From contig JAGVKB010000045.1 of NCBI GenBank assembly GCA_020050835.1, positions 1-33,005 on the forward strand: a DNA stretch of 33,005 nucleotides, read 5' to 3'. The position numbers were made by a program, and so were the translations under genes. The notes below the pieces were generated by a model that saw only the letters and a program-made list of their open reading frames with translations, was not told the DNA's origin and did not search any database. The stretch is from Candidatus Obscuribacterales bacterium. Its GTDB lineage: Bacteria; Cyanobacteriota; Vampirovibrionia; Obscuribacterales; Obscuribacteraceae. This document shows positions 9,783-24,661 of the stretch, one piece after another (positions within the stretch are counted from its first letter, which is position 1; each line of letters begins with the position of its first letter).

Positions 9783-10736
9783 CTACCGGTTGCGGTTCTT
9801 CACAGCGCTCAGGTCGGTTGTAGATAGAGTGAGAGGCTGCTCCTCTGGGCAAAGCATGATACATGGTAGTGTCAAATGCCTTATGAAGAAAGCTGGCGAA
9901 CTTCCAAAGACAGTGATTCTTTGTCCGGACAGCTGTCGGGAGGGAATCACCATCAATGTATTCCCGAGGGCGTTCCATTCAAGGTCTTCTTCCGTGCACC
10001 ACCAGGCCGTTTTGTCTTCGGTCAATATGTTGTTGTTGATTCGCTTAACGTATATTGGAACGTTTTCGGTTTTCGGATTGGCAGTTCGCAGATCGTCGAC
10101 GAATTGTTTCGCCCCTTCCTCGTGAACTCCGGAAGATAAAACTGCTATATGCGGCTTGAGGGAAAGACTGGCTGCGGTGGCCAGGCAAGAATTGAGGTAC
10201 CCTTCGTTTATATGTTTGATCGAAGTAATAATGCGCATTTCCGACAGAAAGTCGCACCGGTCTTGAACGACAAGCAGCGGACTCGGGCACTCATGGGCTA
10301 GACTCTCCGCTACGGAGTATCTGAAAGATCTTCTGCGTTCGTCTTCAATCGGCTCGACCAAGCCGGGGCGATGACCGATGATCACTAAGTCATGTTTCGG
10401 GGCATGGCTACAGATTCTTTCAATTGGATCACCTTCCTCGATCAAGGCTGTACCGCTTAGGCCTGCACCATCTTCGTGCATTTCAAAGACTTCGACCAGT
10501 TTCCTGCCAATCGAATTGAGCGATAAGAGTAACTTTTCTCGCTCGCTAATGAACAGCCCGCTTCCGATAAATCCAGTTCGATCGTATCCTAGCAGTTCCC
10601 ATGCTGCCCGCGTATCTACCACGTGGAGGGCATTGAGTGTCGCATCAGCTTTCTTGGCAAGAGACCACCCGAGTTCGGCGGCGAATCTAGACCGTTCCGA
10701 TGCGCTAAGACCTAACAGAAAACTATTCTTCTTCAT
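9783..10736 (-). CDS. Two-domain universal stress protein-like protein
   Basis: A 317-residue protein with two USP-like halves (about 1-160 and 165-300). The first half opens with a beta strand (SFLLGLSASE) and ends DLVIIGHRPG ... RYSVAESLAHECPSPLLVVQ; the second ends LTLPCIMLCPEE. This is the alpha/beta Rossmann-like fold order of USPs. The canonical ATP-binding signature G-x2-G-x9-G-S/T is absent; an I-G-H-R motif stands in its place, so nucleotide binding is doubtful. It is clearly paralogous to the plus-strand protein at 17998-18927, sharing ALHV(V/I)D, a GSG(L/P)F stretch, IGHR and RYS-A-E. It follows the short USP gene (stop 10800) by 63 bases, and both are probably on one transcript. 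The role is presumably stress or starvation survival, with no defined partner. Confidence 0.8.
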   Translation of the reverse strand: MKKNSFLLGLSASERSRFAAELGWSLAKKADATLNALHVVDTRAAWELLGYDRTGFIGSGLFISEREKLLLSLNSIGRKLVEVFEMHEDGAGLSGTALIEEGDPIERICSHAPKHDLVIIGHRPGLVEPIEDERRRSFRYSVAESLAHECPSPLLVVQDRCDFLSEMRIITSIKHINEGYLNSCLATAASLSLKPHIAVLSSGVHEEGAKQFVDDLRTANPKTENVPIYVKRINNNILTEDKTAWWCTEEDLEWNALGNTLMVIPSRQLSGQRITVFGSSPAFFIRHLTLPCIMLCPEEQPLTLSTTDLSAVKNRNR

Positions 10737-10799: not shown

Positions 10800-11324
10800 T
10801 TATGTGGCGGCAACACTGTCCTGTCCTGCACCATCGGCTTTGCTCTTGCCCTTACTTGATACGGCATGTGGGCGTGCATCTTTTTTACCCGGCCGGATGA
10901 TCTCGACCGAACAAGGTGCATGAGCTGCCACCGCTCTGGAAACGCTACCTAAGATGAAACGGGGACAGATGTTTGTTCCGTGAGCGCCCAGGATGAGCTT
11001 ATCGGCTGACCAGCCTATTGCTGAGTCAATAATCTGTGTTTTGACATTTCCCTCTTTGATGTCGTAATGGACGATGCAATTTGCAATGCTGTCTTCCAGC
11101 TGCTTGCGGGCTTTTGCACAGAGGGACTGAGCATAATTCAACCGCCTTGAATGGGCGTTCTCAATCACAGTGTCCCAATTTCGGTCGCTCCTTTCCAGCC
11201 AATTGACCGGCTCGAGTATCTGAAGGAGCTTAAACTGCGTGTCAGCAGGCCACTTACGTCTACATACTTCGTTTATAACTTCAGTTGAGTAAGGTGAATC
11301 ATCTAAGGCAATTATTACTTTCAC
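10800..11324 (-). CDS. Universal stress protein (UspA family)
   Basis: A 174-residue single-domain USP. It starts with MKVIIALDDSPYS, the beta1 strand and Asp of the ATP site. It carries GAHGTNICPRFILGS, an exact G-x2-G-x9-G-S nucleotide-binding signature, followed by the terminal strand APCSVEII. A Lys/Ser/Gly-rich tail of about 30 residues extends beyond the normal end. ATP-binding USPs act in the cytoplasm in growth arrest, oxygen limitation and redox stress. The start codon is GTG 11324, with AAGGAG at 11333-11338 eight bases upstream. A good sigma70-type promoter lies about 165 bases upstream. The protein resembles the 165-residue USP at 14317-14814 (shared K-W-P-x-D-T-x-F segment), which suggests local duplication. 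Confidence 0.9.
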   Translation of the reverse strand: MKVIIALDDSPYSTEVINEVCRRKWPADTQFKLLQILEPVNWLERSDRNWDTVIENAHSRRLNYAQSLCAKARKQLEDSIANCIVHYDIKEGNVKTQIIDSAIGWSADKLILGAHGTNICPRFILGSVSRAVAAHAPCSVEIIRPGKKDARPHAVSSKGKSKADGAGQDSVAAT

Positions 11325-11749: not shown

Positions 11750-12643
11750 TTACTTCTGGGGTGGTAGCGTCATTAGAAAGTCGGAGATGAGCGTAATATC
11801 CTGTGCGGTCAGTTTAGGCTGTTGAGGCATCTTGTTCTTGGTACCATGCGGTGAAACATGCGCGGCAACTAAGGCGCGGCCTAGACGTATACCCACTCCA
11901 TCGAGGCTTGGCCCGAAGGAACCGCCTACTCCGCCAACTGCATGGCAAGCAGCGCATCCCTCAGCCGAAAAAAGCCGGCGACCTTCCTGGAGCTCTTTAG
12001 ATGATGGCGCCGATTTATGCGGTACTAATTCCGGTATCACTGATTCTGTACCAGCCGGCCGGTGTGCTTTCACGATGAATCCCCCGGTTGGCTCCGGTAG
12101 TGTTAACAAATAGCTGACTAGCGCCTTTACTTCCGCCGGGGACGCCTGCGGGTGCGGCATCAGGTTAGGCCTGTCGCCAAAGGCTTCGGAAAAATCCTTG
12201 ACATTCCTTTCAGGATCGGTCAGGTGAGCGATGAGCCATTGCTCTCCTCGGTGGCCTCCTACTCCGTCTAACGGAGGCCCAACGTTATCTCCGCGTCCGC
12301 CTACCGAGTGGCACTGAGCGCAATGTCGTTGCTCGAATAGTTGTTGACCCTGCCGACTTTGTGCTGTAGCAGCCGCCGGAGTGTAGCCGGTCGGTGGAAA
12401 GAAGTAAGGCGGTAGTTGGTGGTGCTCGATCAGCTGCTCTCTTTCCGATTCACTTAGTGGAAAAATTCTCAAATAGCCGTCATCCTCCAACTCGAGCGTC
12501 TTAGCCGATGCGACCAGGGCATTGCCGTTCGGAGCGCTATCTTTCGTCGCCAAAGGAAGCAATGACAGAAAGGCAGTGAAAAGCAGTAACAAGCCCGCGG
12601 GGATGAAAGTTCTGATATCTCTTGCTCCGCTTGTTCGAACCAA
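11750..12643 (-). CDS. Membrane-anchored diheme cytochrome c
   Basis: A 297-residue c-type cytochrome. Residues about 12-31 form a hydrophobic anchor or uncleaved signal. Two class-I cytochrome c domains follow. Heme 1 binds CAQCH at 108-112, with likely axial ligand M162 (NLMPHP). Heme 2 binds CAACH at 230-234, with likely axial ligand M272 (KNKMPQQP). Each domain has the VGPPLDGVG or FGPSLDGVG loop typical of cytochromes in cytochrome-oxidase-like chains. It would carry electrons on the periplasmic face of the inner membrane. The only usable start is TTG 12643, because a TAA lies six bases upstream in the same frame; no strong ribosome site is seen, so the N-terminus is the least certain part. 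Its neighbours are a hemerythrin-RIC protein upstream and USPs downstream, pointing to respiratory or low-oxygen stress. Confidence 0.88.
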   Translation of the reverse strand: MVRTSGARDIRTFIPAGLLLLFTAFLSLLPLATKDSAPNGNALVASAKTLELEDDGYLRIFPLSESEREQLIEHHQLPPYFFPPTGYTPAAATAQSRQGQQLFEQRHCAQCHSVGGRGDNVGPPLDGVGGHRGEQWLIAHLTDPERNVKDFSEAFGDRPNLMPHPQASPAEVKALVSYLLTLPEPTGGFIVKAHRPAGTESVIPELVPHKSAPSSKELQEGRRLFSAEGCAACHAVGGVGGSFGPSLDGVGIRLGRALVAAHVSPHGTKNKMPQQPKLTAQDITLISDFLMTLPPQK

Positions 12644-12815: not shown

Positions 12816-13880
12816 CTATTGTTTGAGCGCGAAGTTGAATGGACGATATTCGCGATTGCGGTGCCAGGTTCTTGCTTGTACTTCGGCGAGCAGATAGGTC
12901 ATAGGATTTTTTTGAATCACCGGCTGATAACTGCTCGATTGGGGGTATAGCTCCGCGCCGATCATTAACGAAAGGATGACTGCGACAGCCGCTGTGATGG
13001 CTATCGATTTTAGCTTTGATTTGGCTTTTGGCTCGAACGCGTGGCTGAGGCGGCCAGCCGGCAGGAGTGGAGTTTTGTCTGGGTCCTCGTGACAGTGGTC
13101 TTGCTGGTCGTTCATGCTCTGGTTGTTTGCGTTTAACAGATTAGCCAGGGGCCAAAGGAGATGAGTCTCTTCCCGGATGTGTGCTTCCAGGTCAAGCTCT
13201 AGATCGATTAGTGCTTCCAGCCAGATACGATAATCGAGCGCTTCGTGCCCGGTAAAATGAATGCTTGCAGCAGCCTCTCTAATTTCCTTGTATTCGTGTA
13301 ATATCTCTTCGTCTTCCGCGTCTACGATACTCTCTACATCATTGAGCTCGCAGGAAAGCGGTCTGTTCCAACTCTCAAACAGATCATTGCTTTCTAATCG
13401 TGGGAAGAGAAAGCTCTCCTCATTCAGCAGATGCAACATCACTTCTTCCGTGTAAGTTTGGAAGATCTCACGAATTTGAATAATCTCGGCATGCTCTTTC
13501 CCGAGCTTCTTTGTAAACGCGTCAATCTGCTTGTGCAAGAGCGGCAATTCCTTCTTCAGGCGAGCATGATGCTTCTGTCGTATGTGCTGAATTGTATGTC
13601 GCACGATTGACTCGAGCGTCCAGCTATCAAATTTCGTACTGACCTTACAGCCATCGCAGGCTTGGATGGAATTGACAATCTCGATGGGATTTATGTCATT
13701 TTGGTTGCAGACCTTCACTAGTGAGTCTCTAAGACCGCAAGAGAAGCCCAGTCCGGAAGCTTCTATGACGCGGGCTCGCAGTGGATTGTCTTTAACGATT
13801 GTGCCTATATCCTGCTGCAAAATCTTGTTTGAGCTTTCATTGCTATACGCCGATGTGGGCGTAAGCTGTCTGGTGTTCAT
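12816..13880 (-). CDS. DUF542-hemerythrin (RIC/ScdA/YtfE-like) protein with C-terminal membrane anchor
   Basis: A 354-residue protein with an N-terminal ScdA_N/DUF542 region (about 22-78) and a hemerythrin HHE domain (about 88-250). In the DUF542 part the usual Cys-Cys-Gly-Gly is FSCGLRDSL, so only C48 of the pair remains; C58, C75 and C78 follow. Iron ligands can be assigned by pattern: H104/H105, H150-x3-E154, H195 and H234-x3-E238, matching the two H-x3-E pairs of E. coli YtfE. After the domain comes a linker, a hydrophobic helix (about 291-309) and a 45-residue tail, which is not part of ordinary RIC proteins of about 220 residues. The family repairs Fe-S clusters after nitric oxide or oxidative damage and may reduce NO. 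The anchor suggests the iron centre works at the membrane. ATG 13880 has GAGGG just upstream. Confidence 0.8.
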   Translation of the reverse strand: MNTRQLTPTSAYSNESSNKILQQDIGTIVKDNPLRARVIEASGLGFSCGLRDSLVKVCNQNDINPIEIVNSIQACDGCKVSTKFDSWTLESIVRHTIQHIRQKHHARLKKELPLLHKQIDAFTKKLGKEHAEIIQIREIFQTYTEEVMLHLLNEESFLFPRLESNDLFESWNRPLSCELNDVESIVDAEDEEILHEYKEIREAAASIHFTGHEALDYRIWLEALIDLELDLEAHIREETHLLWPLANLLNANNQSMNDQQDHCHEDPDKTPLLPAGRLSHAFEPKAKSKLKSIAITAAVAVILSLMIGAELYPQSSSYQPVIQKNPMTYLLAEVQARTWHRNREYRPFNFALKQ

Positions 13881-14316: not shown

Positions 14317-14814
14317 CTAACAGGTTGCTTGAGCTTTCTCTCTGAGCAACTTATCGGCATTGGACTGCTGTTCTGTTTCGTCGTCTTTACGAATTACTAC
14401 AACTGAGCAACTTGCGTTTGAGACTACTCCCAGTGATACACTGCCTAGAATAAAGAGACTAATCCCCTTTCTTCCGTGCGATCCAAGCACTATCATGTCT
14501 GCCTTCCAAGCGCTGGCGGAGGCGATAATTCTTTGCACCGGGCTTCCTTCCATGACTATCTCTTCGACCGAAGCTTTAGGCATTGCCTTTTTGAGCTCTG
14601 CCGCTGCCTCGCTGCTGACTTTACAGGCATAGTGGTGGCGGTCTTCTAGATATTGAGCCAGCGTCTGCGATGCCGTCAGTTCACGTTCCGGCGGTGTCCA
14701 TTCAATAATGTGCAACACCCTAAATTCCGTATCTTCCGGCCACTTATGCTGACAGGCAAACTTGGTTATAGCTGCGCCGAACTCTTGATCGGCGATTGCG
14801 AGTAAAACTTTCAT
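14317..14814 (-). CDS. Universal stress protein (UspA family)
   Basis: A 165-residue single-domain USP with beta1 MKVLLAIAD and the full nucleotide signature GSHGRKGISLFILGS (G-x2-G-x9-G-S). The terminal strand is ASCSVVVI, followed by a short charged tail. The first Asp loop (AIADQEF) departs from the usual A-x-D-G-S, so affinity for ATP may differ. A strong ribosome site (GGAAGGAG) lies seven bases before ATG 14814. The gene sits 169 bases behind PEP synthase on the same strand. That gap holds several inverted repeats, so it could be independently promoted. The K-W-P-E-D-T-E-F segment links it to the USP at 10800-11324. Confidence 0.9.
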   Translation of the reverse strand: MKVLLAIADQEFGAAITKFACQHKWPEDTEFRVLHIIEWTPPERELTASQTLAQYLEDRHHYACKVSSEAAAELKKAMPKASVEEIVMEGSPVQRIIASASAWKADMIVLGSHGRKGISLFILGSVSLGVVSNASCSVVVIRKDDETEQQSNADKLLREKAQATC

Positions 14815-14966: not shown

Positions 14967-14984
14967 GCCGGCTGGAGTGCCGGC
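14967..14984 (-). terminator. Weak hairpin at the PEP synthase stop codon
   Basis: GCCGGC at 14967-14972 and again at 14979-14984 can pair around a six-base loop, and the stem touches the PEP synthase TAG (14984-14986). There is no downstream U run, so it would be at best a partial or factor-assisted terminator. Confidence 0.25.
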
Positions 14985-17434
14985 TAGAGTATCCGGTTTG
15001 CTAACTGCCTTTGAAAGTCCTCTGGCTTGGTCTCTTTGTTGTTTAACGCCTGTTCGGATTGAGCGATTATTAGCAGTGTCTTGATCACCGCATCTTCATT
15101 TAGGGATATGCTGTCTATTTGCTCTTCAATCAAGAAAAGGGCGAAATCAGGATAGTCGCTCGGCGCCTGCCCGCAAATTCCGATTTTCCTGCCGGCTTTC
15201 TTGGCGGATCTAATCGCTTGGGCTATCATGCGTTTGACGGCCTCATTTCGTTCGTCGAAAAGATGGGCCACTATCGCCGAATCTCGGTCAAGGCCCAGTG
15301 TCAGCTGGGTGAGATCATTCGAGCCGATTGAGAAGCCGTCGAAGATTTCGGCAAAGAGATCAGCTGCAATCACATTAGCTGGAAGCTCGCACATTACGTA
15401 TACTTCCAGTCCGTCTTGCCCGCGTTTGAGACCATTCTTTTCCATCTCAGCCAGGACGCTTTGACCTTCAGAAACAGTTCTGCAAAATGGCACCATTACT
15501 TTTACGTTGTTCAGTCCAAGGGCCTCACGGACGTGCTTGAGAGCCTGGCATTCAAGAGCAAATCCGTCTTTATAGTCTTCGTGGTAATAGCGAGCAGCTC
15601 CTCTGAACCCGATCATCGGGTTTTCCTCTTTCGGCTCGAACTGGGCTCCCCCTAAAAGATTGGCGTATTCATTGGTTTTGAAGTCGGACAGCCGCACGAT
15701 CACTTCGCGCGGGTAGAACGCCGCGGCAATTGTCGCTATTCCTTCGGCGAGCTTCTGAACGAAATAGTCTTCTCGCCTCTGATAATTACGAGTGAGATGC
15801 TCGATCGCCATTCTTGTTTGAGGGTCTGAAATAGAGTCGAACCTGGTGAGTGCTAACGGATGAACCTTCACTTCATTGGCGATAATGAATTCCTCGCGCG
15901 CCAACCCAATACCGTCGACCGGTAGAGAGGCAAGCGAAAGTGCCTGCTCCGGGTTGCCGAGATTGAGCATTATGCGCGTATTGGTTTTGGGGATGTCATC
16001 TAAATGGACGGTTGAGCGGACGAATGGAAGCCGTCCGGCATACACTCGTCCTTCCTCACCACCGGCGCAGCTTACCGTAATCTGACGAGCGTTTTCGAGG
16101 ATTTCCGTTGCCCTGCCGGTGCCAACCACGCATGGCACTCCGATCTCCCGGCTGACGATCGCTGCATGGCAGGTTCGACCGCCGCGATTCGTAACGATTG
16201 CCGCCGCGCGCTTCATTACAGGCTCCCAGTCAGGATCGGTCATGTCGGTAACCAGGACATCACCGTCTTGAAATGACTTTAGCTCGTTGAGATTGTTGAT
16301 GAGCTTGGCTGGTCCGGCGCCAATCTTTTCGCCGATCGCTCGGCCAGTCAATATCACCTGTCCATCGGATTCAAGTCGATAGGAATCGAGTATACGGACG
16401 TCCCGCACGGAATGAACCGTCTCAGGTCTTGCTTGTACAATGTAGAGCAAGCCGTCCTTGCCGTCTTTTGCCCACTCGATGTCCATTCCGACATTTCGCT
16501 GGTACTTTGCGCTGTAATGGTGCTCAATGGCGCATGCCCAGTTGGCCAGGAGCAGCACTTCTTGATCCGTCAGGCTGAGTCGCTCGCGTTCTTCTACTCG
16601 AGTATTTAGGTTGCGCGTGGTTCGCGTTCCATGTGTGTCATAAACCATGCGAAACTGTTTGGAGCCTACCTTGCGGCGAATAATCGAGCTATGTCCAGTC
16701 AGCAAGGTCGGTTTAAACACGAGAAACTCGTCGGGATCAACTCGACCGGCGACCACATTTTCGCCCAGTCCATATGAGGAGGAGACAAGAACGACGTCTC
16801 TGAATCCGCTTTCCGGGTCAAGCGTAAATATCACGCCGGCTGCAGCCAAGTCAGATCTCACCATCTTTTGCACTCCGACCGACAGGCGGACTGTAACGTG
16901 GTCGAATCCCTGGTCTATGCGATATGCGATCGCGCGGTCCGTAAAGAGCGAAGCAAAGCAGTTTAAGCAGGAATCAAGCAGCGCCTGTTCTCCACGCACA
17001 TTGAGGAATGACTCTTGTTGTCCGGCAAATGATGCTTCTGGCAGATCCTCAGCGGTGGCGCTCGATCGTACTGCTACATCTACGCCGGACCCGTAGCGGC
17101 GCTCCATCTCTTTGTAGGCGCTGAGAATCTCTTCTTTCACTGCTGCCGGTAATCCGGTCTGCTTGATCAAGCTTCTCAAGGAGAGAGCGCGCTTGGATAG
17201 CTCTTCCGTGTCGTTTTTGTCAAGCCCGTCGAGCAGCTCCTTTATTTGTCCTTCGATCTTGCCATCTCTAAGAAGCGCAGCATAGGCATCGGCTGTCACT
17301 ATGAACCCACCAGGGACTCGTATACCTTGGCTAGTCAGCGAACGCAACAACTCTCCAAGCGAGGCGTTCTTTCCACCAGCTATCCCGATGTCTTCAAGTC
17401 CTACATTTTCGAGCCAGCGTGTGTAGTTGGTCAT
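14984..17434 (-). CDS. ppsA: Phosphoenolpyruvate synthase
   Basis: An 816-residue enzyme making PEP from pyruvate and ATP (products AMP and phosphate), the entry to gluconeogenesis. The domain order is complete. The N-terminal ATP-binding domain (about 1-345) contains GGKNASLGELL, VRSSATAEDLPEASFAGQQESF and YIVQARPETV. The phosphohistidine domain has GGRTCHAAIVSRE with catalytic H423. The C-terminal TIM barrel has GIGLAREEF, MVPFCRT, GSNDLTQLTLGLDRDS and IGICGQAPSD with catalytic C754. The open frame extends to 17590, but ATG 17434 begins MTNYTRWLENVGLEDI, the standard PpsA N-terminus, and has GGGAGAG just upstream; the upstream extension is noncoding leader. A 15-pair hairpin lies 71-100 bases upstream and a 20-bp palindrome about 180 bases upstream, both possible control sites. 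USPs flank it on both sides. Confidence 0.95.
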   Translation of the reverse strand: MTNYTRWLENVGLEDIGIAGGKNASLGELLRSLTSQGIRVPGGFIVTADAYAALLRDGKIEGQIKELLDGLDKNDTEELSKRALSLRSLIKQTGLPAAVKEEILSAYKEMERRYGSGVDVAVRSSATAEDLPEASFAGQQESFLNVRGEQALLDSCLNCFASLFTDRAIAYRIDQGFDHVTVRLSVGVQKMVRSDLAAAGVIFTLDPESGFRDVVLVSSSYGLGENVVAGRVDPDEFLVFKPTLLTGHSSIIRRKVGSKQFRMVYDTHGTRTTRNLNTRVEERERLSLTDQEVLLLANWACAIEHHYSAKYQRNVGMDIEWAKDGKDGLLYIVQARPETVHSVRDVRILDSYRLESDGQVILTGRAIGEKIGAGPAKLINNLNELKSFQDGDVLVTDMTDPDWEPVMKRAAAIVTNRGGRTCHAAIVSREIGVPCVVGTGRATEILENARQITVSCAGGEEGRVYAGRLPFVRSTVHLDDIPKTNTRIMLNLGNPEQALSLASLPVDGIGLAREEFIIANEVKVHPLALTRFDSISDPQTRMAIEHLTRNYQRREDYFVQKLAEGIATIAAAFYPREVIVRLSDFKTNEYANLLGGAQFEPKEENPMIGFRGAARYYHEDYKDGFALECQALKHVREALGLNNVKVMVPFCRTVSEGQSVLAEMEKNGLKRGQDGLEVYVMCELPANVIAADLFAEIFDGFSIGSNDLTQLTLGLDRDSAIVAHLFDERNEAVKRMIAQAIRSAKKAGRKIGICGQAPSDYPDFALFLIEEQIDSISLNEDAVIKTLLIIAQSEQALNNKETKPEDFQRQLANRIL

Positions 17435-17504
17435 AATCTCTCCCGCACAAGATGAGCGACGGATACGCTGCCTTAATGTTCGTCGCTTACTGAGGTATTG
17501 CGCA

Positions 17505-17533
17505 TCGACCTTTCGGTTGGGTCGAAAGGTCGA
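17505..17533 (-). promoter_or_regulatory. Long hairpin/dyad in the PEP synthase leader
   Basis: TCGACCTTTCG at 17505-17515 and its exact complement CGAAAGGTCGA at 17523-17533 flank a seven-base loop. Beyond one A-C mismatch the stem continues for four more GC pairs (17500-17503 with 17535-17538), for 15 pairs in total. It lies about 70 bases before the ppsA start and would be transcribed in its leader if the promoter is upstream. It could be an operator or an RNA control element. There is no U run, so termination is unlikely. Confidence 0.45.
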
Positions 17534-17610
17534 CGCGCCAGGCTCGACGGTCGATTTCGTAAAGGCTGAAGTGTTCTGGTTGCGCTGCAAACTTGCTACG
17601 GCAAGGCTGA

Positions 17611-17630
17611 AATCATCCGATCGGATGATT
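17611..17630 (+). promoter_or_regulatory. Perfect 20-bp palindrome between divergent ppsA and USP genes
   Basis: AATCATCCGA at 17611-17620 is followed with no spacer by its exact reverse complement at 17621-17630. The surrounding bases do not extend the symmetry. A perfect uninterrupted 20-bp dyad in a divergent intergenic region is the usual form of a dimeric repressor or activator operator. It could serve ppsA on the left, the small ORF and USP on the right, or both. No regulator gene is adjacent, so the binding protein is unknown. Confidence 0.5.
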
Positions 17631-17766: not shown

Positions 17767-17874
17767 GTGCTCGATTTATTGGCTGTTTTAGGTCTAGGAG
17801 TCTTGGCGGTCCTGCCGATACTCGTATATATGCTGGATCGATGGGGTTTTGAAGGTGGCGCCAGGAAAGATTGA
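17767..17874 (+). CDS. Possible 35-residue single-pass membrane peptide
   Basis: A short frame from GTG 17767 to TGA 17872-17874 encodes an N-terminal hydrophobic helix (LDLLAVLGLGVLAVLPILVY) followed by a charged tail (MLDRWGFEGGARKD). GGGAG at 17758-17761/62 lies about five bases upstream, and a stop codon at 17755-17757 means the frame cannot extend further. A TTGACT near 17730 could be part of a promoter. The form, one helix plus a short basic cytoplasmic tail, is like small subunits of membrane complexes (KdpF- or CydX-like size), but no family match is claimed. It lies between ppsA and a long USP-like gene, oriented with the latter, 123 bases upstream of it. Confidence 0.4.
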   Translation: MLDLLAVLGLGVLAVLPILVYMLDRWGFEGGARKD

Positions 17875-17997: not shown

Positions 17998-18927
17998 ATG
18001 AAAGAATTGTCGCTACTTCTTGCGCTGGATGGATCGCTGGAATGCAAGGCAGCATTTGCTGCTTGCCATAAGTTAGCCACTAAAATGCCGGTACGGGTAA
18101 CTGCCCTACATGTTATCGACTCTGTTGGACTGTGGGATTTCCTCTGTCACGATTCGGAGGGGCTACTCGGCAGTGGCCCGTTTCTAATGGCTCATGAGCA
18201 GATGAAACGAGCGCTGCAGTCGATTGGTGAAACATTGACGGATGTATATAAGATTCATGCTGATTCCAGCGGTATTGAAGGAGACTTGATTTTGGATGAG
18301 GGAAGCACCGTCAGAGAGGTCTACCGGCGGTGCCAAGACTTCGACATGATTGCGATCGGACATCGAATGTGCGGTGTGCGATCGACAGCTGAAGAACGCC
18401 GGAAGTTTCCGCGCTATTCTGCGGCCGAGAAGCTGGTGCACTACGTCAATCGGCCGCTTCTAGTCATGCAGAGCGCACTGACTGATTGGGCCTTTTTGAC
18501 ACTGGCTGTGTCTGCTGATCGACTGTACGTAAATGCCTTTGCCGGAGCGATCCAACTTGCCAAGAAATTGTCTGTACCGCTCAGAGTCACATTCGGAGTG
18601 CAGCCGGGCGACGAAGTGGATCGTATACCCAGCGTTGTGAACCGAATGAGGCAAAGTGCCGGCGTCGCTGACGAGTTTCCGGTTGATGTCAAGATTGTGC
18701 GAGGCGACGGAGCGTGGTTTATGCCACCGATCGAGTCGGCGTCCGATTCGCTCGTGATTGTGCCGACAGCCGCATCCAGTATGGTGCGTGAAACGCCATT
18801 CAGTACTGCTCCTGACTTAGTGCTCCGCTACTCGCCCTGTCCTGCAATCTTGTTCTGGCCCGAGGAGTATTCTGCAACTGGAGCTTTGCAGCAGGAGAAA
18901 GTGACTATCGTGGCGGCTGGCGACTAG
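17998..18927 (+). CDS. Two-domain universal stress protein-like protein
   Basis: A 309-residue paralogue of the protein at 9783-10736. The first half runs from MKELSLLLALDGSLE through VTALHVIDS and FDMIAIGHRMCGV to RYSAAEKLVHYVNRPLLVMQ. The second half spans about 165-290 and ends RYSPCPAILFWPEEYS. The fold order is that of tandem USPs. The first half keeps the LALDGS loop, but neither half has the G-x2-G-x9-G-S/T signature; IGHR replaces it, as in the paralogue. ATG 17998 is used; the upstream ribosome site is weak (AAGG about 13 bases before). The gene is divergent from ppsA, with a palindrome and a small ORF in the gap, and converges on the USP at 19004-19543. Confidence 0.8.
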   Translation: MKELSLLLALDGSLECKAAFAACHKLATKMPVRVTALHVIDSVGLWDFLCHDSEGLLGSGPFLMAHEQMKRALQSIGETLTDVYKIHADSSGIEGDLILDEGSTVREVYRRCQDFDMIAIGHRMCGVRSTAEERRKFPRYSAAEKLVHYVNRPLLVMQSALTDWAFLTLAVSADRLYVNAFAGAIQLAKKLSVPLRVTFGVQPGDEVDRIPSVVNRMRQSAGVADEFPVDVKIVRGDGAWFMPPIESASDSLVIVPTAASSMVRETPFSTAPDLVLRYSPCPAILFWPEEYSATGALQQEKVTIVAAGD

Positions 18928-21772: not shown

Positions 21773-22354
21773 TTAAGGCAAATAGAGCTCCGATTTTACG
21801 ATTGGGAAGAGGTAAGTTCTATTGAGCTTAAGGTAGCCATTCTTGTTAAATTGAGCTCCGAAAAAGAAAATCGGTGCTGGAACTTTAACTGTCGTCTCGG
21901 TGGTCACTGATACATACGGTGATTCGTTATCGGGTGGATTGCCGCCGTAGTCTTCGTAGATGAAGCCGCTTGTAACGACAGCCGGCTTGGTCAGGATGAA
22001 ACTATTGGATGGATATGAGCTGACGATCGCTCTGGCTGCTGACAAGCCGTTAGTGTAGTCCTTTGTTTGCGCGGCCGCGCGGGCTGCATCCCGGCAGGCG
22101 TGATCGTTGACTGCTGCTGCTAACGTAAGAAGTGAGAGGTTTAGTGCCAGCAGTATTAAGGGCACCATACAAACAATAATGGATGCCAGCTCGATGATAC
22201 TCTGACCGATTCGGTGCTGATTTATGCGGTGTTCGTCATTTGAGGACGCACGAGGCGTTTTTGATTTATGTCTCAAGTTGGCCGCAGAACGAATTGTGAG
22301 AATTTTGAGGATTCTAGACATCGGTTTTTCTTCTAGTGATTGAGTTAATGTCAT
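21773..22354 (-). CDS. TadE-like pseudopilin family protein
   Basis: A 193-residue protein with about 49 hydrophilic residues, then GQSIIELASIIVCMVPLILLALNLS. The G-Q-S-x-x-E junction followed by a hydrophobic helix is the TadE/TadG processing and membrane signature. The C-terminal part (about 85-193) is a small beta-rich extracytoplasmic domain ending in FPIVKSELYLP. In Tad systems such minor pilins are cut by a TadV-type peptidase and help assemble Flp pili or related surface structures. ATG 22354 overlaps the stop of the VWA gene (ATGA), so the two are translationally coupled. An internal ATG at 22321 is possible. It is last in the three-gene operon. Confidence 0.75.
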   Translation of the reverse strand: MTLTQSLEEKPMSRILKILTIRSAANLRHKSKTPRASSNDEHRINQHRIGQSIIELASIIVCMVPLILLALNLSLLTLAAAVNDHACRDAARAAAQTKDYTNGLSAARAIVSSYPSNSFILTKPAVVTSGFIYEDYGGNPPDNESPYVSVTTETTVKVPAPIFFFGAQFNKNGYLKLNRTYLFPIVKSELYLP

Positions 22355-24123
22355 GGAACTAATTGAACCAATTGTCTTGCAATGTTTTCGAAAGTAGCAC
22401 GTAAATTGTTTACGTCAGTGACCAGAAAGAATCGACCACCGTTGCCTGCGATTGCTGCCATGCCACCATTGGTAGTGGAGGGATTGGTGTCATTGAGCAA
22501 GTTGATTTCTGACGGGATGATCTCTTGATTCTGAGCAAGTCCGATTGTATAGATCGGAATACCGGATTTCTTCGCTTCAACAGCGGCTTTACGAGCATTG
22601 GTCCATGGATCCGACGAGAGTGGATTGCCGGCCGTCGGCTCGCCATCTGTAAAGAGAATGATCGCTTTCTTTGCGCCTGAACGCGTGTTGTTTTGCAATT
22701 GACGTACCGCTTGAAGGACTGCATCTCCGATATTGGTGCTGGTGGTTGCAACGGTCGCCGGTAAGGCGTTGGAAATGTCATCTAAATTGGTGTCGGCATC
22801 TAGCGCTTTGTCGAGGATAATTTGGGGGATGGCAAACTGTGACTGACCGGCCTGCGAATAGTTACTGTCGACGTTGTATGCTGTGTAAGTGTCGGTAGCC
22901 GAGCGACCGGCGTTGTCAGAAAAGGTAACCAGTCCGAAATGTGCGTTAGTATTAGTGTTCATGACGGTCAGAAATTCATGTGCTGCTACTTGCGCATCAC
23001 TTATAGGGTGGAGTTGCGATCTGCATTGGGCTAGATATTGTGCTTTGTACCCTGCCCGCGGTACCAGTCCTGGTAGTGCGGTCTCGGCTTTGCTGGCGCT
23101 GAAAGCAGAGTAGTTCTCTAAATTTCCGCGCGACGCTTCCACAAGCGATGCAACATTTGGAAATGAGTAGCCATCGATAGTAATTCCGCCGAAGGACTGT
23201 TTGCCGTCGATGTTTAAGACCAGATCTGTATATGTATATTGATTACCCGTGCCTGAGTGAAGTGGCGGGCAATTACCAGGCGGCGAGCCGGTATTGGATG
23301 AACCGCGAAGCCCGCGAGCGCTTCCGCTCGCGGGCCATTTTTCGCTGAAGTTGAGCGGCCATCTGACGTCACTTTGATTGGAAGTGGAGAGATACTGGGG
23401 ATAAAGTCCATTCACGCGAGTACCGGTCGGCGGAGGCCCGATTAGGTCGTAAAGCTTGCCCTGGGCCGAGCTTCTGGGACCACCGCTAGTTGGTGGGATG
23501 ATGTACTCTATCCTGTTTTGAGTGGTATTCCATTGTCGTCTAACGAATGTTACTAAGCTTTGATCGTCCATTGAGCCGGAGAGATCGAAACAGAGCACGA
23601 GATCCAGATCGGGTACGCCACCATGACTGATCGTACGCAGTGGGACTGGTCCCAGTCCAAGGTAGGGAGCGAGTGCCGTCGGCGCATTGAAGGTTGTGGT
23701 CAGACGTAAAATCTTGCCGTTGGGATCGCCCAGCGAGACCGGTTGATTGTTATTCTTGGGATCCAGGAATTCTATGTATAGATATGATTGGCCAGTGATT
23801 GGAATTGCATCGCTGTCGGCGGAAAGGGATGCCGTATCCATTGGAAGTCCCAGAATCATGTTGTGCCTGAAGGTGTTTAGTGCGGTGTGAACGGCTGATT
23901 CGTGCGTTTCGTTTGGATCCATACTGTCGCTGCTTGCCAGCGTCGCTGCACCGGCCAGTGCGGCGGAGTCGCATGCGGATTGGAGCTGCTGGCTTGCCAG
24001 GTACATGCGTGCTGCTTCGAATGCCAGAAACCCGATCGGTGCTATTACCAGTATCGCCAGTAGCAGACCAAGCGTGATTACTGCCTGCGCGCTACAATTT
24101 CGTGGTTCTTGTTCTAAGTGCAT
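22351..24123 (-). CDS. TadG-like protein with von Willebrand factor A domain
   Basis: A 590-residue protein with a short N-terminus, a TadG-like membrane helix (about 13-37) and a conserved AARMYLASQQLQSACDSAALAGAATL segment (the Tad/Flp 'DAAALAGA' motif). A VWA domain follows, with MIDAS motif DLSGS at 180-184, the HFGLVTFSD strand near 400 and AIILFTDGEPTAGNP near 495. Between the first MIDAS strand and the rest lies an insertion of about 190 residues, Pro/Ser/Gly-rich. VWA-TadG proteins sit on the outer surface and may bind ligands in a metal-dependent way, for example as adhesins. The frame can start at GTG 24168, but ATG 24123 has AGGAAG eight bases upstream and follows the preceding stop by 16 bases. 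The gene end overlaps the TadE start. Confidence 0.85.
   Translation of the reverse strand: MHLEQEPRNCSAQAVITLGLLLAILVIAPIGFLAFEAARMYLASQQLQSACDSAALAGAATLASSDSMDPNETHESAVHTALNTFRHNMILGLPMDTASLSADSDAIPITGQSYLYIEFLDPKNNNQPVSLGDPNGKILRLTTTFNAPTALAPYLGLGPVPLRTISHGGVPDLDLVLCFDLSGSMDDQSLVTFVRRQWNTTQNRIEYIIPPTSGGPRSSAQGKLYDLIGPPPTGTRVNGLYPQYLSTSNQSDVRWPLNFSEKWPASGSARGLRGSSNTGSPPGNCPPLHSGTGNQYTYTDLVLNIDGKQSFGGITIDGYSFPNVASLVEASRGNLENYSAFSASKAETALPGLVPRAGYKAQYLAQCRSQLHPISDAQVAAHEFLTVMNTNTNAHFGLVTFSDNAGRSATDTYTAYNVDSNYSQAGQSQFAIPQIILDKALDADTNLDDISNALPATVATTSTNIGDAVLQAVRQLQNNTRSGAKKAIILFTDGEPTAGNPLSSDPWTNARKAAVEAKKSGIPIYTIGLAQNQEIIPSEINLLNDTNPSTTNGGMAAIAGNGGRFFLVTDVNNLRATFENIARQLVQLVP
23310..23335 (+). 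repeat. GC-rich perfect hairpin inside the TadG/VWA gene
   Basis: GCCCGCGAGCG at 23310-23320 and its exact complement at 23325-23335 form an 11-pair stem with a CTTC loop. CATTTTTC follows on the plus strand, giving the look of an intrinsic terminator oriented against the gene. On the coding strand it spells part of the VWA insertion (PASGSARG). It is much more GC-rich than the surrounding sequence. Confidence 0.5.
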
Positions 24124-24139
24124 GCCAATTACTTCCTGG

Positions 24140-24661
24140 CTATTGAGTAAGTCCTTGTGGGAATTCACAAAAGGTCTGGGTTGACACCGAAAGTTTCACA
24201 GGTCCAGTCAGCCCTGGGACCGTACCAAACAGACAACCGTCGAAACTGATCAGCGGACTGACCTTGCCGACTACGACGGTTCGTATGCTGTAAACGTTTA
24301 GATCAGTATCAGCAGGCTGGCTTAGCGGTGTCGATTGCTGAACGCTTGTGCGATCGATTAAATTTGTTACCACGATGTATGTGTTGACGCTCGATAGGGT
24401 TACACCGCTTAAGTTGGCAGCCTTTGCGGTTGCGATGTCGGAAGCAGCCTGGATAGCTGACTGGGACTGCCCAGAGCTGCTCTTCGAGAAGGTTTTGCAT
24501 CGACTTGCTACGAGGGCCGCATCCCTGGCAATCGACTGAAGGAGCACAGCACGTAAGGTTGTGGTGGCGAGATCGACCAGTGGTAGAGCCAGACCTAGCA
24601 TTAAAACCCACAGTGAGAGCGGGACATCGACTAGTGCAGATCCTCGCGCCAATCTTTTCAT
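24140..24661 (-). CDS. TadE/TadG-like minor pilin-type protein
   Basis: A 173-residue protein with a short basic N-terminus (MKRLARGSALVDVPLSLWVL) leading directly into a hydrophobic helix (about 12-40). A beta-rich extracytoplasmic domain follows, containing two cysteines near the end (C143 and C167 region) that could form a disulfide. The N-terminal pattern resembles pseudopilins of the TadE/TadF/TadG group, though the family match is weak. ATG 24661 has AGGAG about ten bases upstream. It is first in an operon: its stop is 16 bases before the VWA protein start. It may form a complex with the other two products at the inner membrane or in a surface fibre. Confidence 0.65.
   Translation of the reverse strand: MKRLARGSALVDVPLSLWVLMLGLALPLVDLATTTLRAVLLQSIARDAALVASRCKTFSKSSSGQSQSAIQAASDIATAKAANLSGVTLSSVNTYIVVTNLIDRTSVQQSTPLSQPADTDLNVYSIRTVVVGKVSPLISFDGCLFGTVPGLTGPVKLSVSTQTFCEFPQGLTQ

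Follow-up and report, generated by a model that had tools for sequence, protein, structure and literature searches.

A 20-base palindrome that is most likely a stress-regulator binding site for low-oxygen and nitric oxide survival genes in Obscuribacterales

A perfect 20-base palindrome in a contig of Candidatus Obscuribacterales bacterium is most likely the binding site of a stress regulator for low-oxygen and nitric oxide (NO) survival genes across the Obscuribacterales, and the regulator probably receives its signal from a haemoglobin-like, oxygen-sensing kinase. We consider it likely that the palindrome serves as operator for a dimeric NarL-family regulator with a LiaR/VraR-like DNA-binding domain, the gene for which is paired with that of a protoglobin-PAS kinase, and that this regulator would activate a low-oxygen/NO regulon. 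Obscuribacterales are non-photosynthetic Cyanobacteriota known mostly from metagenomes.

RESULTS

The palindrome and its genomic setting

The window is the whole stretch of DNA that was analysed (33,005 nucleotides, contig JAGVKB010000045.1). Consistent with the sequence-only reading that drew attention to it, the palindrome consists of two 10-base halves that abut without a spacer, and it lies between divergent genes, for PEP synthase (−) and a universal stress protein (USP; +), outside supported coding regions. The features concerned are as follows.

17611..17630, no strand: AATCATCCGATCGGATGATT, perfect palindrome and proposed operator, an 8-4-8 dyad AATCATCC-GATC-GGATGATT
14984..17434, − strand: PEP synthase/pyruvate phosphate dikinase-type protein, 816 aa from ATG 17434, proposed target (Pfam PPDK_N, PEP-utilizers, PEP-utilizers_C)
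17998..18927, + strand: universal-stress-like protein, 309 aa, proposed divergent target (weak, divergent Pfam Usp match, E = 3.5e-4, under the curated cut-off)
14317..14814, − strand: USP, next in the minus-strand run behind PEP synthase (Pfam Usp, E = 8.5e-22)
12816..13880, − strand: RIC-like ScdA_N and hemerythrin protein with a C-terminal hydrophobic segment, same run (Pfam ScdA_N and Hemerythrin, both weak)
11750..12643, − strand: two-domain cytochrome c, same run (Pfam Cytochrom_C, two stretches)
10800..11324, − strand: USP, same run (Pfam Usp)
9783..10736, − strand: USP, last of the run (Pfam Usp)

Coding regions supported by homology exclude the palindrome: PEP synthase starts at ATG 17434 (−), preceded by GGGAGAG and about 176 bp from the dyad, and the USP-like gene starts at 17998 (+). 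A longer TTG frame of the PEP-synthase ORF stops at 17590, short of the site. The palindrome is the longest spacer-free one in the window, the runner-up having 7-bp arms. Its symmetry alone is nonetheless weak evidence, since spacer-free palindromes with arms of at least 10 bp are expected 0.03 times per window and 6.4 times per 7-Mb genome.

Three further features of the window were observed. The PEP-synthase leader contains an imperfect inverted repeat at 17500-17538 with 16-nt arms, a 7-nt loop (GCGCATCGACCTTTCG / CGAAAGGTCGACGCGC) and no T-run, which does not recur elsewhere in the genome at up to three mismatches. Between the dyad and the USP-like gene, 17767-17874 (+) could encode a small membrane protein of 35 codons with a GTG start (VLDLLAVLGLGVLAVLPILVYMLDRWGFEGGARKD) and GGGAG upstream. 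A strong G+C hairpin with 11-bp arms (GCCCGCGAGCGCTTCCGCTCGCGGGC) lies at 23310-23335, within the ORF at 22351-24168.

The dyad recurs in promoters across Obscuribacterales

A genome scan with the literal 20-mer at up to two mismatches, the check suggested by the sequence-only reading, returned the window copy alone. Freedom at the four central bases accounts for this uniqueness: at three mismatches, four further copies with varying centres were found in the genome, and three of these four match AATCATCC-N4-GGATGATT to within one base. The recurring element is this 8-4-8 dyad, with core consensus TCATCCTWWAGGATGA; the consensus from the positions fixed and those left free in the search is AATCATCCTWWAGGATGATT, and its centre is symmetric. 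With a free centre, the 7-Mb genome holds three exact copies and one one-mismatch copy of the dyad. Summed over per-genome counts in 50 Obscuribacterales genomes, the dyad at no more than one mismatch gave 58 copies, compared to 0 for a control consisting of the same pattern reversed, itself palindromic. In the same 50 genomes, the 12-base core TCATCC-N4-GGATGA gave 111 exact copies (1 for the control), while among 190 genomes of the class outside Obscuribacterales the core showed no excess (6 versus 7 for the control). Given the excess inside the family and its absence outside, we conclude that the dyad is real and specific to Obscuribacterales rather than a general Cyanobacteriota element.

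Only 12 of 74 distinct core dyads fall inside ORFs of at least 120 aa (called by a simple greedy longest-ORF rule), although 85.5% of the fetched loci is coding. In addition, −10-like hexamers peak 19 to 21 nt from the dyad (16 in this three-position interval, against an average maximum of 10.7 under the null; P = 0.003). This peak would put the dyad centre near −41.5 to −43.5, a usual place for an activator touching the −35 region, and the dyad-to-−10 layout is readable directly in the RIC promoters of loci L023 and L028. In the genome of the window, many one-mismatch cores lie inside ORFs and are probably due to chance, and a few lie in promoters beside target orthologues. Within the island of the window, a search for further dyads gave just 4-mismatch candidates, at chance level.

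Two loci have unusual copies. At L031:1501-1771 (G027:C67), three dyad variants (AATCATCCCAATGGCTGATT twice) with similar flanks occur within 270 bp and look like a locally repeated element. At L039:1480-1540 (G043:C243), unlike at other copies, the dyad centres a longer inverted repeat (TTTTTACAACCTATC ... GATAGGTTGTAAAAA).

The window copy has a G rather than a T at position −2, a base found there in only 11% of half-sites, so that its centre reads GATC instead of the preferred TWWA; its outer 16 positions are perfect. No −10-like hexamer was found at the favoured distance on either side of it. Because of its atypical centre and the lack of a good −10 where one is usually found, the window dyad may be a weaker site or may use a different promoter geometry.

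Genes facing the dyads form a coherent set

The genes that face dyads are USPs, NO reductase, NnrS, RIC/hemerythrin proteins, Hcp, hydrogenase maturation proteins, cytochromes c, Hsp20, cation P-type ATPase, and PEP synthase in three to four genera; an AckA-linked locus is also among them. Representative loci with a dyad are listed here.

NorB (nitric oxide reductase): L034/L091, L121
NnrS: L024
RIC with rubredoxin, ScdA_N and hemerythrin domains, facing the dyad: L107, L122, L127
Hcp/prismane protein: L087
HypF: L088, L119
HypE-linked loci: L021
Cytochromes c and di-haem peroxidase: L016, L042, L113, L148
Cation P-type ATPase: L079, with similar genes in L098 and L133
PaaA/PaaC-like protein: L123, L128, L132, L154 (three genomes and the genome of the window)
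Hsp20-like gene, 97 bp from a one-mismatch core: L154, genome of the window (assigned by eye)

The composition of the window's island matches this set: five USP or USP-like genes, a RIC-like hemerythrin protein, a two-domain cytochrome c and PEP synthase. The USP-like protein at 17998..18927 groups with the USP-like proteins of L138 and L152, which also face dyads, and RIC-type genes like that at 12816..13880 carry the dyad directly in other genomes (the three loci listed above). It is only from this target set that induction by hypoxia or NO may be inferred. A family of small membrane proteins (∼75 to 110 aa), ending in YLLRDDPDIWR or similar, also recurs beside dyads and hydrogenase-maturation genes (L102, L108, L074:14550-14798, L076:11341-11655).

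PEP-synthase orthologues are present in 22 of 50 family genomes, and a site was found in three to four of the 21 promoters compared, most orthologues being without one. All four sites lie ∼140 to 220 bp upstream of the start.

Genome of the window: core exact
G021: core exact, between divergent USP and PEP-synthase genes as in the window
G032: one mismatch
G028: two mismatches, also with a GATC centre

The intergenic DNA as a whole is not conserved in 60 relatives at E ≤ 0.001. The sequence-only reading had proposed an operator shared by a stress regulon and named, as evidence against it, a site unique in the genome and not conserved upstream of ppsA in relatives. The recurrence of the dyad in stress and low-oxygen promoters across the family, together with the sites in G021, G032 and G028, largely supports the proposal; at PEP synthase itself, however, conservation is only partial.

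PEP synthase lies within a few kilobases of the globin-kinase/NarL-type regulator genes described below, or of a paralogue, in many genomes (G021:C199, G013:C1, G041:C42, G037:C88, G025:C52), and adjoins the module in several, e.g., G013 (L075). This nearness suggests that PEP synthase is a core member of the system.

A candidate regulator is paired with a globin-coupled kinase

At L038 the dyad directly precedes a NarL-family response-regulator gene (Pfam Response_reg and GerE); the best candidate for this gene in the genome of the window is G000:C101:60029-60739. Thus, the remark in the sequence-only reading that no adjacent regulator explains the palindrome is correct for the window, but the same genome encodes a likely regulator outside the window, and in other genomes this regulator gene adjoins dyads and PEP synthase. 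The dyad lies ∼70 to 105 bp upstream of the regulator gene in all seven species of genus g21 with a close orthologue, a linkage that is circular because the regulator was first chosen for its position behind the dyad in g21. This circularity does not extend to other genera. In six of them, 10 genomes in all carry an exact-core dyad no more than 6 kb from the gene for a close homologue of the regulator (∼0.2 expected over all genomes). In the g21 intergenic alignment, the dyad's 14 central specified and near-central bases are conserved and the flanks are divergent. Exact dyads are absent from several genomes in which the regulator has a close homologue (e.g., G002, G006, G011 and G017). Since a NarL-type match is present in all 50 family genomes, comparing the presence or absence of the regulator with that of the site is uninformative.

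The regulator gene is divergent from that of a Protoglobin-PAS-HisKA-HATPase_c kinase in eight of eight loci inspected, including that of the window's genome (L074). The sensor region of the kinase comprises a protoglobin domain (PF11563; E = 1.5e-37) and a PAS domain, and a Pfam search gave no match to a GAF domain in it. Its globin is related to HemAT and AfGcHK (PDB 5ohe), and Tyr74 and His127 (L074 numbering), which align with the haem contacts of HemAT, are invariant in all eight kinases. By sequence, the protein is therefore a globin-coupled sensor kinase, in which a protoglobin with proximal His and distal Tyr is joined to HisKA and HATPase_c and haem binding is predicted. The closest PDB matches to the DNA-binding domain of the regulator are LiaR/VraR.

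An uncharacterized protein of ∼130 to 180 aa adjoins the module in a number of loci (L074:7856-8260, L075, L076, L077, L080, L079, L086, L088) and is preceded by a dyad in five genomes. Two members were searched against Pfam, with no match.

From these data we infer a pathway in which the soluble kinase would sense O2 (or NO) through its globin haem. Low oxygen (or NO) would change the ligand state of the kinase, and with this polarity of signal the regulator would become phosphorylated and dimerize. The dimer would then physically bind TCATCCTWWAGGATGA ∼41 to 43 bp upstream of the transcription start and would activate, rather than repress, the regulon. From the window site it may control the divergent USP gene in one direction and, in the other, PEP synthase together with the USP/RIC/cytochrome c run. 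Counting against this operator model, it is unusual for a HisKA-type kinase to phosphorylate a NarL-family regulator.

Alternative explanations

The dyad could be the operator of the same regulon but bound by another protein, namely, a NarL/LiaR-type paralogue, an HxlR-family protein or a CRP/FNR-type regulator, such that the globin-kinase regulator is only a target. We consider this unlikely. An HxlR-family gene lies ∼70 to 90 bp downstream of the dyad in three g5 genomes (L096, L097, L149); however, this linkage is limited to a few genera, whereas the NarL-type regulator is linked in seven. Several paralogues of the NarL type occur in the genome of the window (five matches with E ≤ 1e-30), but the paralogue on G000:C109 differs in its recognition helix (SAETIKTHMRHIM versus SLATAKTHVRNIL). 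FNR-type regulators also use dyads with 4-bp spacing and often control low-oxygen/NO-type genes. Their consensus is TTGAT-N4-ATCAA, that of CRP is TGTGA-N6-TCACA, and the dyad consensus AATCATCCTWWAGGATGATT corresponds to neither. The dyad is unlike the TTGAT half-site and instead resembles the LiaR/CesR box, which belongs to the subfamily of the candidate itself.

Action of the palindrome as RNA, in a leader hairpin or a terminator, is very improbable. The dyad could fold into an 8-bp stem with a 4-nt loop, and a few copies elsewhere precede T-runs or form part of extended inverted repeats (L005 reverse strand, L039), but there is no T-run at the window site, the primary sequence is kept and not only the pairing, and the centre consensus is symmetric. 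Moreover, sites lie upstream of genes on both sides, with −10-like hexamers downstream of the dyad. No Rfam family matched in the window. An intrinsic terminator was also considered and rejected: the site lacks a G+C-rich hairpin with a T-run, and the dyad is followed by AGCAGATCAG on the + strand and TCAGCCTTGC on the − strand. We give equally little credence to a chance palindrome that is functionless in the window. A 7-Mb genome should contain about six perfect 20-bp palindromes by chance, the window site is without the preferred centre or an obvious −10, and most relatives have no site at PEP synthase. Against this, at each of the 16 informative positions the palindrome agrees with a family motif that recurs independently, a match with a chance of ∼1 in 600 per genome, and it does so in a divergent promoter of target-type genes whose corresponding place is occupied in the three other genomes listed above.

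DISCUSSION

The operator model, with the NarL-family regulator and its globin-coupled kinase, can be compared with known systems. The published CesR box is TCAGHCTnnAGDCTGA, and the LiaR box is similar to it (PMC4447274). Compared to TCATCCTnnAGGATGA, the CesR box has equal length and an equal 2-bp free centre and differs at a single half-site position. Like LiaR/VraR-type regulators, the candidate combines a receiver with a GerE/LuxR-type DNA-binding domain (Pfam Response_reg, GerE), and its binding to the site is predicted. Streptococcus mutans LiaR additionally requires an A-rich stretch beside the repeat (PMC4447274). CesR, LiaR and VraR are NarL-family regulators of cell-envelope stress in Firmicutes, whereas the proposed targets here are low-oxygen/NO genes. 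The LiaS and VraS kinases are membrane proteins encoded in an operon with a LiaF-like protein, in contrast to the soluble, divergently encoded protoglobin-PAS-HisKA-HATPase kinase.

DosRS and the system here have in common a NarL-family regulator, a haem sensor kinase (predicted here) and similar target classes; DosR targets include USPs, Hsp20, a cation P-type ATPase and nitrate/NO functions. DosS and DosT, however, hold haem in GAF domains and have HisKA_3-type kinase domains in another phylum, where the kinase here has protoglobin with HisKA. The DosR consensus of Mycobacterium tuberculosis is a 20-bp palindrome, TTSGGGACTWWAGTCCCSAA, with the centre CTWWAG (PMC2275270). Only this central CTWWAG is common to the dyad; the outer half-site bases differ, and the dyad does not conform to the 20-bp DosR site.

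With NmpRSTU of Myxococcus xanthus the system has a globin kinase in common. NmpRSTU comprises a protoglobin sensor kinase and controls an oxygen-utilization regulon including USPs and hemerythrin, by a phosphorelay in which a hybrid kinase passes the signal to an NtrC-like sigma-54 activator whose site is GCGCA-N5-TGCGC (PMC11841059). Unlike in NmpRSTU, the regulator here is not NtrC-like. To our knowledge, the published form of AfGcHK is without a PAS domain. AfGcHK of Anaeromyxobacter has a globin domain homologous to that of the kinase here (PDB 5ohe) and is part of an Nmp-type arrangement in its genome (PMC11841059). By analogy, the putative system should be viewed as working like DosRS with a different haem sensor and as belonging to neither DosRS nor NmpRSTU; it is best called NarL/LiaR-type two-component regulation with a globin-coupled kinase.

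A search of the open-access literature found no description of an oxygen-regulation regulon for Obscuribacter or Obscuribacterales, which is not proof of absence. On balance, we lean toward the view that Obscuribacterales survive hypoxia and NO by means of an undescribed regulon resembling that of DosR, with a globin-coupled kinase passing the signal to a LiaR-type regulator. This combination of haem sensor and output would be new, and its site layout and targets (USPs, Hsp20, cation ATPase, NO detoxification, hydrogenase maturation and PEP synthase) would have converged with those of dormancy control in mycobacteria. Such a system would bear on the evolution of DosR-like dormancy control, as a similar site centre and similar targets go together with a different haem sensor and a different NarL-type branch. 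With a defined operator, a candidate regulator and a candidate oxygen sensor, the low-oxygen physiology of the Obscuribacterales becomes testable in vitro without cultures.
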